Positions 32,228 to 40,568 of a stretch of DNA of 52,889 nucleotides are shown here, one piece after another. Made by a program: the position numbers and the translations under genes. A model generated the notes under the pieces. The model worked only from the letters and a program-made list of their open reading frames with translations, was not told the DNA's origin and did no database searches. The stretch is from Candidatus Avamphibacillus intestinigallinarum (GTDB lineage: Bacteria > Bacillota > Bacilli > Bacillales > Amphibacillaceae). The stretch is taken from assembly GCA_018711205.1 (NCBI GenBank), contig DVIO01000040.1:1-52889 (forward strand). Direction: 5' to 3'. Numbering within the stretch: position 1 is the stretch's first letter; each line of letters starts with the position of its first letter.

Positions 32228-33511
32228 TTATCCCTCCATCATAATAAGTTGTGGATCGTTCAATAATTTCTTGATTTGATTTAATGCAAGCTGTGCTGTT
32301 GCACCATCGACAATTCTATGATCAAAGCTAAGTGATAATGCAAGCACTGGTGCTGCGACAATCTCTCCATTACGAACAATCGGTTTCTCTGCAATACGTC
32401 CAATACCTAATATAGCAGCTTCCGGATAATTAATGACTGGTGTAAACCATTGTCCACCAGCAGAACCTATATTAGTAATTGTACTTGACGCATCCTTCAT
32501 CTCGTTCGACGTTAGTATACCATCACGAGCCTTTTCTGCCAATGCATTAATTTCTTGTGAAATGTCAAAAATTGATTTTTTATCAGCATTTTTAACAACC
32601 GGAACAAGCAGGCCTTTATCTGTATCAGCTGCAATTCCAATATTGTAATAATGTTTATATACAATTTCGTCCGTTTCATCATCAATAGATGCATTGATAA
32701 TTGGGTATTTTTTAAGTGTTGAAACAATCGCTTTTACAACATATGGTAAGTATGTCAACTTAATGTCTTGTTCTAAAGCAATTTCCTTAAATTTCTTACG
32801 GTGAGCAACCAATTCTGTAACATCTATTTCATCAAGTAATGTTACATGTGGCGCTCTCGTCTTAGAATTGACCATTGCGTTTGCAATTGTTCTACGCATT
32901 GCTGTCATTTTTTCACGTGTTTCCGGTAATGGCCCTTCTGGAATACTCGTTGTTGGCGTTGCTTCTTGCTCTACTCCACTATCTTGACCTGTTTCCGTAA
33001 CAGTTTGATCTCCTGAAAGGTATGCATTTATATCTTCTTTTAAGATACGACCATTTTTTCCAGTACCTGTCACATTTTGGATTGCCACATCATTTTCACG
33101 TGCATACTTACGTACTGATGGCATTGCAATCACTTGTCGCTTATCCTCATTTGAATCATGTTCTTCTTTTACTGATGTATCTGCTTCAGACACCGTTTGC
33201 GCCTGTTCTTTGGTTTCTTCTGAGCCAGATTCTGAAGCTGTTTCTTCTACTTCTTCCTCTTCATCCTCGTAGCCTTCAGCATCAATTGTGACTAATGTTT
33301 GACCAACTGTCGCAACTGTACCTTCTTTAACATGTATTTTGTCAACAGTTCCATCCACTGGTGAAGGAATTTCAACAACTGCTTTATCGTTTTGCACTTC
33401 ACATAGCACGTCGTCTTCATTAACTTCTTTACCTTCCTGGATAAACCATTTGACTATTTCACCTTCATGGATACCTTCACCGATGTCGGGTAATTTAAAT
33501 ATAAAAGCCAT
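32228..33511 (-). CDS. pdhC: Pyruvate dehydrogenase E2, dihydrolipoamide acetyltransferase
   Basis: A 427-residue E2 chain: one lipoyl domain (about 1-78, [14 protein letters not shown] with the lipoylated Lys), an acidic linker, a peripheral-subunit-binding domain (about 130-165, [20 protein letters not shown]), a second flexible linker, and the catalytic domain (about 200-427) ending with the active-site pattern [15 protein letters not shown] single lipoyl domain is normal for Gram-positive E2. It sits between pdhB and pdhD. Confidence 0.97.
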
Positions 33512-37373: not shown

Positions 37374-37382
37374 ACGTATATA

Positions 37383-37420
37383 ATAAGACAATGAGTTATA
37401 AACATAACTCATTGTCTTAT
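37383..37420. terminator. Bidirectional terminator between def and the HAD gene
   Basis: ATAAGACAATGAGTTAT and ATAACTCATTGTCTTAT form a 17-bp stem with a 4-base loop between converging genes. Confidence 0.83.
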
Positions 37421-37427
37421 GTACTTT

Positions 37428-38201
37428 TTAAATCAATTCTAGCTTCCTTAACGCATGTAGCACCCCGTCTTCATCTACAGTATTTGTTACATAGTCGGCA
37501 ACTGCTTTTAATGGCTCTACTCCATTTTCCATTGCAACTCCATAGCCTACAGCTTGCAGCATCTCGATATCATTTAAACCGTCTCCAAACCCGAATGAAT
37601 TTTCAGGGGCTATGCCACTCGCTTCTAAAAATTTTTTAATGCCAACTGCTTTATGACCATTGCCAGGCAGAACATCACAAGTATATTTATGCCACCGAAT
37701 GATACGTGATCTCCCTTGTTCACAACGCAGGGTATCCTCTTCATTCTCCTCACAGAATAATAATGCTTGATATATATTACGATTGATAATCTTTTCAAGA
37801 TTAACTTCAGGATATTCAAATTGTAATTTACTAAGACCTGATTTAATAAAAGGATGGTTCGGAACTGTGGCATTCATCTTCGTTTCATCCATAAAAATCA
37901 TCGGCACTTCTTTTTTCATCGCGATATTCCAAAGGCGCGATACTTCATCTTCGTCTATTGTATTTTTATAAATCACTTCATCATTCATAACGACATATTG
38001 ACCACTATAACTAATGTAGTTTTCAATATTTAATTCCTTTCTTAGCTCATTAAACATAAAGGGTGGTCTCCCCGTAGCAAACGCCACTTCTATATCGTTT
38101 TTCTTCAATTGTTGAATCGCTTCCCTCGTAGAGCGTGGTAACTCCTTCTTAGAATTTAACAACGTATTATCAATATCAAAAAAGACAATTTGTTTTGACA
38201 A
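37428..38201 (-). CDS. HAD superfamily hydrolase, Cof type (YkrA-like)
   Basis: A 257-residue HAD phosphatase with a C2 cap. Motif I is FFDIDNTLLNSK (nucleophile Asp8, acid Asp10), motif II AFATGRPP, motif III includes the Lys in GHKAVGIKKFL, and motif IV is FGDGLNDIEML. Such proteins act on sugar phosphates, flavins or other small phosphates; substrate cannot be read from sequence. It lies between def and the rpoY-rnjA region, as ykrA does in B. subtilis. Confidence 0.88.
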   Translation of the reverse strand: MSKQIVFFDIDNTLLNSKKELPRSTREAIQQLKKNDIEVAFATGRPPFMFNELRKELNIENYISYSGQYVVMNDEVIYKNTIDEDEVSRLWNIAMKKEVPMIFMDETKMNATVPNHPFIKSGLSKLQFEYPEVNLEKIINRNIYQALLFCEENEEDTLRCEQGRSRIIRWHKYTCDVLPGNGHKAVGIKKFLEASGIAPENSFGFGDGLNDIEMLQAVGYGVAMENGVEPLKAVADYVTNTVDEDGVLHALRKLELI

Positions 38202-38410
38202 ACCATATGCCTCCTAGAATGAAATATTGTAAATTGTTTAAAATAATATATATCGGTAAAGGAATGGTGAATCAGCTAAAAAATAAGTTTTTTAAAGAAA
38301 AAGCTATATTTTCATTTAATTATTTGTCATAAAGTACTATAATGATAATAAGAGGAATTGGGTCGGTTCATGTTTTGTATGCTTTTCGAATAGGAAAGGG
38401 GAGTCTTTCC
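38202..38410 (+). promoter_or_regulatory. Promoter region of the 25-codon gene
   Basis: This interval has no gene. On the plus strand a consensus TATAAT lies at about 38337-38342, some 70 bases before the mini-gene, but the -35 region is poor. The stretch just before the start is purine-rich (GGAAAGGGGAG), a strong ribosome site. Confidence 0.45.
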
Positions 38411-38488
38411 ATGTTAAAACGTTTAAAAGAAAAGCTTAAGAAACGAATAAAAGAATTATTAGGTAAAAAGAAAATGCCAACCACATAA
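38411..38488 (+). CDS. 25-residue cationic amphipathic peptide
   Basis: A 25-codon frame starting MLKRLKEKLKKRIKELL and ending MPTT. It is preceded by AGGAAAGGGGAG ten bases upstream, followed by its own terminator-like hairpin, and has a TATAAT upstream, so it looks like a complete small transcription unit. Lys/Arg number 11 and Glu number 2, giving a net charge near +9. Leu/Ile fall at positions 2, 5, 9, 13 and 16-17, which puts them on one face of a helix. I do not recognise a family. It could be a membrane-active or nucleic-acid-binding peptide, or the coding part of a regulatory RNA. Confidence 0.6.
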   Translation: MLKRLKEKLKKRIKELLGKKKMPTT

Positions 38489-38519: not shown

Positions 38520-38566
38520 CATACCATATTCATAGGTGTATTACAGAATATGTCGTATGCTTTTTT
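38520..38566 (+). terminator. Terminator after the 25-codon gene
   Basis: CATACCATATTC (38520-38531) pairs with GAATATG and GTATG (38546-38552, 38555-38559) with a 2-base bulge, then C and TTTTTT. The loop is about 14 bases. Confidence 0.65.
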
Positions 38567-38603: not shown

Positions 38604-38632
38604 AAGGTTAGCCTATGAGTTAACCTTTTTTA
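38604..38632 (+). terminator. Terminator-like hairpin (possible attenuator) in the rpoY-rnjA leader
   Basis: AAGGTTA (38604-38610) and TAACCTT (38621-38627) with a 10-base loop and a following T run. It lies downstream of a consensus TATAAT (38574-38579) and about 60 bases before rpoY. An AACC at about 38587-38590 could pair with the GGTT of the stem instead, an arrangement seen in attenuators. Confidence 0.55.
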
Positions 38633-38687
38633 TCTATAATATGCATAATCAATATGCAAATTCGAATAAACTATTAGGAGAGATGAA

Positions 38688-38897
38688 ATGATATTTAAAG
38701 TGTTATATCAAGAGGTACCCGACGAAGTACCTGTTAGAGAAAGAACAAAAAGCCTTTATATAGAGGCTGAATCAGTGCGAGAAGTTAGAAAAAAATTACA
38801 AAATCATCAATATAATATAGAATTTATTGAAGCTTTAGATGACAATCATTTAGCATATGAAAAGCAATCTGAAGATTTCAAGTTAGAGCAGGTGTAA
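38688..38897 (+). CDS. rpoY: RNA polymerase epsilon subunit RpoY
   Basis: A 69-residue protein of the RpoY (formerly YkzG, DUF1447) family, an accessory subunit of Firmicutes RNA polymerase. The N terminus [20 protein letters not shown] is highly characteristic, as is [21 protein letters not shown] precedes the ATG. It is three bases upstream of rnjA, the conserved pair of Bacillales. Confidence 0.95.
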
Positions 38898-38900
38898 AAT

Positions 38901-40568
38901 ATGAAATTTGTTAAAAATGATCAAGCTGCTGTTTTCGCACTCGGTGGCCTTTCAGAAATCGGTAAAAACACATATGGTGTTCAGTTTCAAGATGAAATTA
39001 TTTTAATTGATGCAGGAATTAAGTTTCCTGATGATGAATTGCTCGGTATTGACTATGTTATTCCTGATTATACGTATTTAATTCAAAATCAAGATAAAAT
39101 CAAAGGTTTATTTATTACCCATGGTCACGAGGACCACATTGGTGGTATTCCATTTCTACTAAAAGAAATCAATATTCCAATCTATGCAGGTCCTCTTGCA
39201 ATCGGGCTGATTCGTAAAAAGTTAGAAGAACATGGGTTGCTTAGACAAGCACAACTTATTCCTTTTAATGAAGATGATGTTTTTAAATTCAGAAAAACTT
39301 CTGTAAGCTTCTTCCAAGTTACGCATAGTATTCCTGATTCATATGGTATTGTTGTCAAAACACCACCAGGAAATATTGTGCATACTGGAGATTTCAAATT
39401 TGACTTCACCCCAATTGGGACACCAGCTAACTTAGCGAAAATGGCTCAAATCGGTGAAGAAGGCGTACTTTGCTTACTATCCGATAGTACCAATAGTGAA
39501 GTTCCTGGATTTACCATGTCAGAAAGCGTCGTCGGCGAAACAATTAAAGATATTTTTTACCGGGCTGACGGTCGTCTGATTTTTGCTACCTTCGCTTCTA
39601 ATATTTATCGTTTACAACAAGTTATTGGAGCTGCTGTAGCAAACAATCGTAAAGTTGCCATTTTCGGACGTAGTATGGAGTCTGCGATTACAATTGGTAC
39701 TGAATTAGGATATATTGATGCACCAAAAGATACTTTCATTGATGCAAACCAAATCAATCGATTACCTGCTGATGAAGTATGTATCCTTTGTACAGGGTCA
39801 CAAGGAGAACCAATGGCTGCCCTATCACGTATTGCAAACGGTACACACCGACAAATCCAGATTATCCCTGAAGATACTGTTGTATTTTCATCTTCACCGA
39901 TTCCTGGCAATACAGTAAGCGTTAGTCGTATCATTGATAAATTAGAACGTTCCGGAGCAGAAGTCATCCATGGTAAATTAAACAACATTCATACTTCTGG
40001 TCACGGGAGTCAAGAAGAACAAAAATTAATGCTACGTCTCATTCAACCAAAATTCTTCTTACCGATTCATGGTGAGTATCGTATGTTAAAAGAACATACA
40101 AAACTTGCAGAATCTTGTGGTGTACCATTAGAAAATTCATTTGTGATGGATAATGGAGATGTTTTGGCCTTAAATAAAGATGAAGCACAAATTGCGGGTA
40201 AAATTCCATCTGGCGTTGTGTATGTAGATGGAAACGGTATTGGAGATATTGGGAATATCGTTTTACGAGACCGTCGTATTTTATCAGAAGAAGGCCTTGT
40301 AATTGTTGTGGTTAGCATTAACATGAAGGACTTTAAGATTGCTTCAGGCCCAGATATTATCTCACGTGGTTTTGTCTACATGAGAGAATCTGGTGATTTA
40401 ATTAATGAAGCTCAAAAACTTGTTTCAACACATTTAAATAAAGTGATGGAACGCAGAACTACTCAATGGTCTGAAATTAAAAATGAAATCACAGATACGA
40501 TTGCACCGTTCTTATATGAAAAAACGAAAAGAAGACCAATGGTATTACCAATTATTATGGAAATATAA
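38901..40568 (+). CDS. rnjA: Ribonuclease J1
   Basis: A 555-residue metallo-beta-lactamase/beta-CASP nuclease with 5'-3' exonuclease and endonuclease activity in mRNA turnover and rRNA maturation. The zinc motif [10 protein letters not shown] has His74, His76, Asp78 and His79. Later signatures are [23 protein letters not shown], the beta-CASP region and [11 protein letters not shown] followed by PIHGEYRML. The length fits RNase J1. It ends at a shared terminator facing ktrC. Confidence 0.97.

Follow-up and report, generated by a model that had tools for sequence, protein, structure and literature searches.

SpoVM of Bacillus, a peptide of 26 amino acids (aa), forms a cationic amphipathic helix at the membrane surface, and the phenol-soluble modulins are secreted via dedicated transporters and restricted to particular lineages. 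SR1P of Bacillus subtilis (39 aa), which is found only in Bacillales, raises the activity of RNase J1 through GapA (PMC8152036). In this work, we describe a micropeptide gene located upstream of the genes for RNA polymerase epsilon (rpoY) and RNase J1 (rnjA) in Candidatus Avamphibacillus intestinigallinarum (Bacillales, Amphibacillaceae). The stretch analyzed, hereafter the window, comprises the whole 52,889 nucleotides (nt) of contig DVIO01000040.1 (GenBank assembly GCA_018711205.1, forward strand). The frame at positions 38411-38488 is almost certainly a real, overlooked gene that gene finders have missed. It starts with ATG, runs over 25 codons and closes with TAA; its ribosome-binding site lies about 7 nt before the ATG, so that the unannotated small frame with a strong ribosome site, proposed in an earlier sequence-only reading, is indeed present.

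38411..38488, plus strand: gene for a 25-aa cationic amphipathic micropeptide, MLKRLKEKLKKRIKELLGKKKMPTT, supported by conservation of the frame, by a ratio of nonsynonymous to synonymous changes per site (pN/pS) of 0.13 and by conservation above that of the flanks
38393..38403, plus strand: ribosome-binding site GGAAAGGGGAG, read from the sequence; AAAGGAG-type sites precede nearly all the homologous frames

The analysis of 67 independent close pairs of homologous frames revealed 319 synonymous versus 160 nonsynonymous changes, the substitutions at codon positions 1, 2 and 3 being 97, 70 and 312, respectively; the resulting pN/pS of 0.13 is biased somewhat downward, because the loci used in the codon test were accepted partly on their peptide match. 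The codon-phased changes and the low pN/pS imply that selection acts on the peptide, and codon-phased purifying selection of this kind is what a protein-coding small gene displays. The frame is also more conserved (0.875) than the 60 nt on either side of it (0.747 and 0.765), and it is presumably translated in vivo.

A six-frame peptide search found the micropeptide, essentially in one copy per genome, in the window genome and in all the 36 other genomes of its family, each belonging to a different genus, as well as in several other families; this retention, which is order-wide and accompanied by mostly third-position changes, answers the comparison with relatives that had been proposed together with the frame. 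In 45 of 45 loci retrieved in this way, the frame lies upstream of rpoY and on the same strand. Regions upstream of rpoY (PF07288), which 100 out of 101 genomes from the order carry, were then collected without regard to the peptide (68 loci from about 47 families), and the profile matched 58 of the 68 regions versus one of the 68 reverse strands and none of 680 shuffled regions, a result well outside what chance would give. Since these regions were taken via rpoY, this figure is free of the bias in the choice of loci mentioned above. The full-length matches examined class-wide are all upstream of rpoY, at a distance of 31-480 nt. The peptide of the B. subtilis group, represented by B. spizizenii, B. 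inaquosorum and B. tequilensis (the species closest to B. subtilis 168, a strain not included among the loci compared), is MLRKLRKKLRRQWNGMLRKKAIA, encoded 117 nt before rpoY and preceded by the ribosome site AAAGGAGG; the other named genomes harboring the gene include Geobacillus, Anoxybacillus, Robertmurraya, Halalkalibacterium, Chryseomicrobium and Bhargavaea. The two conserved neighbors in the window are the following.

38688..38897, plus strand: rpoY, RNA polymerase epsilon subunit (PF07288, E 3e-30)
38901..40568, plus strand: rnjA, ribonuclease J1 (NF047419 RNase_J1_RnjA, 975 bits)

As to the physical character of the family, its order-wide consensus is MLKKLRKKLLKQWKDLLRKKTIA, and the tail is longer in the members from the family of the window, where it closes with VPTT or a similar sequence. 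Positions 2, 5, 9, 13, 16 and 17 are recurrently hydrophobic and most of the others are Lys or Arg (conserved at 3, 4, 6, 8, 11 and 20), giving net charges from +5 to +14; the peptide of the window, with 11 Lys/Arg and 2 Glu, carries +9, in agreement with the charge originally estimated. The amphipathic helix proposed at the same time is likewise borne out as a pattern, residues 2-18 of the window peptide having a helical moment of 0.57 (permutation p 0.05) and the 143 distinct 17-mers of the family a median permutation p of 0.027, with the mean moment peaking at 100 degrees. The HeliQuest-type lipid-binding discriminant D has a mean of 2.8 and a minimum of 1.6. The pattern fits a helix lying in the plane of a membrane or docking on a protein, and the composition might suit the membrane-active or RNA/DNA-binding peptide suggested by the sequence-only reading. 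No significant match to the peptide was found in Pfam, NCBIfam, PHROGs or the PDB, nor any report of it in the open-licence literature, supplementary tables not covered; the gene may conceivably be listed already in a supplement or have been given a recent locus tag.

On these grounds, we suggest, giving the idea about an even chance, that the product is a housekeeping, trans-acting cationic amphipathic helix, most likely docking on the membrane or on RNA polymerase/RNase J1. According to this model, the microgene would encode a cytoplasmic peptide of 23-30 aa and would be a transcription unit separate from rpoY-rnjA rather than their leader; the peptide would fold into a helix whose Leu/Trp face docks it and whose Lys/Arg face lies on an acidic surface, such as the inner leaflet of the membrane, RNA polymerase epsilon or RNase J1. 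In this way, the helix might tether or tune the transcription or RNA-decay machinery, a role distinct from sporulation or warfare. A more specific version, which we regard as tentative, is that of a micro-subunit or ligand of the Bacillales transcription/RNA-decay machinery, with RNA polymerase epsilon or RNase J1 either bound by the peptide or anchored through it to the membrane. Since RpoY is acidic (net charge -5), a direct binding of the peptide to it is conceivable, and SR1P is a precedent for a small protein, restricted to Bacillales, that raises the activity of RNase J1 (PMC8152036). If this version were correct, such a micro-subunit or ligand would be present in B. subtilis itself, overlooked for decades through its small size.

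Sporulation is not the purpose of the micropeptide, because the gene persists where SpoIVA is undetected, that is, in the window genome, in G007 and G289 and in the f82 genomes G283, G293 and G303. The window genome itself (a 2.0-Mb, 91%-complete assembly) differs in this respect from most of the family genomes tested, which have SpoIVA, and this suggests a reduced, non-sporulating member of its family.

Several observations weigh against the housekeeping role just proposed, in addition to the downward bias of the codon test. About 10 of the 68 rpoY loci have no recognizable copy of the gene, which is therefore not indispensable, and Staphylococcus-like and Lactobacillales-like genomes possess rpoY without the micropeptide; moreover, phylogeny confounds both the synteny and the co-distribution of the two genes. 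No micropeptide was found at the rpoY loci examined in Marinococcus, Salsuginibacillus, Texcoconibacillus, Aerococcus and Enterococcus. The co-distribution itself counts in favor of the proposed role: among the genomes searched for both genes, 22 harbor both and 29 rpoY alone, and no full-length match occurred in about 100 genomes lacking rpoY; the phylum-wide search outside Bacilli gave only partial matches at chance level. At two loci below the profile threshold (L101 and L107), the region upstream of rpoY contains frames that have diverged (MKKKLRLLKKFKKWVKLQNNNGKLILN and the like) and that follow a ribosome site; they are perhaps strongly altered versions of the gene.

A first alternative, which seems unlikely, is that the helix modulates a membrane protease, occupying FtsH as lambda CIII or SpoVM do and stabilizing FtsH substrates. 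CIII is the only recurrent match of named function that the family has in Pfam and PHROGs (E 0.065 and 0.26), its segment RKLRDGWKRL aligns with kKLkkrWkdL of the family, and shuffles of lambda CIII rarely reach its score (0.25% of those that keep the composition and 0.55% of those that keep the pattern); size and charge, in turn, are like those of SpoVM. However, the best score to Lambda_CIII (PF02061), 12.1 bits, falls short of the Pfam gathering cut-off of 25.7, the E of 0.065 is the best among 35 members, with CIII singled out post hoc among thousands of families, and CIII of a Yersinia phage does not resemble the micropeptide family. Besides, short amphipathic helices readily converge, and there is no linkage to FtsH in the neighborhood of the micropeptide. 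Homology to lambda CIII is thus suggestive only, and the resemblance is probably convergent. In the lambda record J02459.1, the CIII frame (33299-33463) is labelled "kil", as is its neighbor.

An action on nucleic acids, with the peptide binding RNA or the ribosome, would be compatible with the net charge of the family, with its conserved Lys and Arg residues and with neighbors belonging to RNA metabolism; nevertheless, plain nucleic-acid binding would not need the strict Leu/Leu/Leu/Trp/Leu face, and we consider this possibility improbable.

The organization of the transcription unit bears on a further hypothesis, that of a leader peptide whose translation controls, in cis, the read-through of a terminator into rpoY-rnjA. 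The relevant signals in the window are listed below.

38338..38343, plus strand: TATAAT -10 box of the micropeptide gene, read from the sequence; the TACTATACT region is conserved across 36 genera of the family
38350..38367, plus strand: 5' leader block, approximately AGAGGAATTGGGTCGGTT, with two mismatches to the family form GGGATTGGATCGGT
38520..38566, plus strand: weak hairpin followed by T6, a possible first terminator, not better than shuffles
38604..38633, plus strand: intrinsic terminator-like hairpin and T run before rpoY, with a 9-pair stem (z -1.87)

The sequence-only reading had assigned the frame its own promoter and terminator. The TATAAT exists and is conserved in the family, but the -35 is poor (TTTAAT at 38315-38320, 17 nt 5' of the TATAAT) and a generic promoter scan of the window did not report the site. 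Similarly, a hairpin (38520-38559) and T6 (38561-38566) do exist, but they were said to come right after the frame and instead begin 31 nt past the stop; the hairpin is weak (-7.9 kcal/mol), and the 82-nt stretch downstream of the stop folds no better than shuffles (z +0.38); the hairpin at 38604-38633 makes the better terminator. Thus, a promoter and terminator proper to the gene hold for the family as a whole, and most strongly in Bacillus, Geobacillus and Planococcaceae-type loci, but they are weaker in the window, whose own terminator is less convincing than those of many relatives. A terminator-like hairpin separates the frame from rpoY in 105 of 199 unique loci versus 74 of 597 shuffled gaps (12%); it begins within 45 nt of the stop in 87 loci, the majority of which have it within 13 nt. 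Such close terminators are seen at loci of the B. subtilis group, of Geobacillus and of the Planococcaceae type; in the first of these, the terminator is followed by an apparent promoter of rpoY. Many relatives (loci L166, L188, L205, L225 and similar) embed promoter, ribosome site, a frame of 23 codons and terminator within about 150-200 nt, the hairpin starting 0-13 nt past the stop codon.

The constant position of the frame before rpoY and the terminators between them, often near enough for a terminating ribosome to cover the hairpin, are in agreement with a leader. Nevertheless, the length of the gap is not constant (31-480 nt), there is no conserved alternative RNA structure of the attenuator type, many loci have no terminator in the gap, and a conserved helix of Leu, Lys and Arg does not resemble a stall motif. 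Given the terminators close behind the stop and the apparent rpoY promoter after them, the micropeptide gene appears to be usually a short separate unit, and a leader function is rather doubtful.

That the peptide is exported and membrane-active, like a modulin or a bacteriocin, is very unlikely: composition and amphipathicity would be suitable, but no transporter or immunity gene adjoins the micropeptide gene, there is essentially one copy per genome, and the housekeeping synteny is fixed and evolution slow over dozens of families, whereas exported peptides usually turn over fast. The fixed synteny and the slow evolution argue against an antimicrobial role. The upstream neighbor is divergent.

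37428..38201, minus strand: HAD-IIB hydrolase of the Cof type (PF08282 / TIGR00099)

Between this gene and the convergent def, a long perfect inverted repeat (AATGAGTTAT...ATAACTCATT, 37380-37423) with A/T-rich flanks is likely a bidirectional terminator.

The family of the window (loci L001-L037) shows a 14-nt leader block, GGGATTGGATCGGT, after the -10 region. Of 60 family genomes, 36 contain a single exact copy of the block, nearly always at the micropeptide gene (in G005, it is on a different contig from that gene), and the reversed control contains none. The block may serve as an operator or in regulation of another kind. A pairing of the leader with codons 6-9 was not established (mean z -0.67 versus synonymous shuffles, with 4 of 37 below 0.05), and a sequestration of the ribosome site by the leader was rejected (pairing probability 0.76 versus 0.71 in controls). 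No consensus RNA structure of the leader and the frame start was found, and the Rfam search of the window and region gave nothing relevant. That the locus is a non-coding RNA element in which the frame arose by accident is hardly credible, since the conserved leader block and its possible pairing with the codons are opposed by third-position-biased substitutions at the pN/pS given above, by ribosome sites at nearly all loci and by the lack of any Rfam match or consensus structure; in particular, no covarying RNA structure was found, the finding that, with frame-disrupting changes, the sequence-only reading had named as contradicting a peptide.

The importance of the housekeeping helix proposed here lies in a highly conserved gene standing beside those for RNA polymerase epsilon and RNase J1 in the species nearest to the Gram-positive model that has been studied best. 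It shows that order-wide micropeptides of less than 30 aa can stay hidden in well-studied genomes, and its role is directly testable in B. subtilis.

Compared with the systems described so far, the micropeptide is a short amphipathic peptide like the phenol-soluble modulins, although no dedicated ABC transporter gene exists in its immediate neighborhood. A ten-residue amphipathic stretch of the FtsH inhibitor lambda CIII (PF02061) resembles the family, but CIII is a phage-encoded protein of 54 aa and the match is far below the family cut-off. The micropeptide shares its size class and the cationic amphipathic helix with SpoVM, as the latter is generally described; unlike the sporulation-specific SpoVM, it is present without detectable SpoIVA and is not restricted to spore formers. 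As for SR1P, no sequence relation is claimed and the link of the micropeptide to RNase J1 is one of genomic position only; like SR1P, however, it is a small conserved Bacillales protein, probably encoded by a short separate transcript and connected with RNase J1 (PMC8152036).
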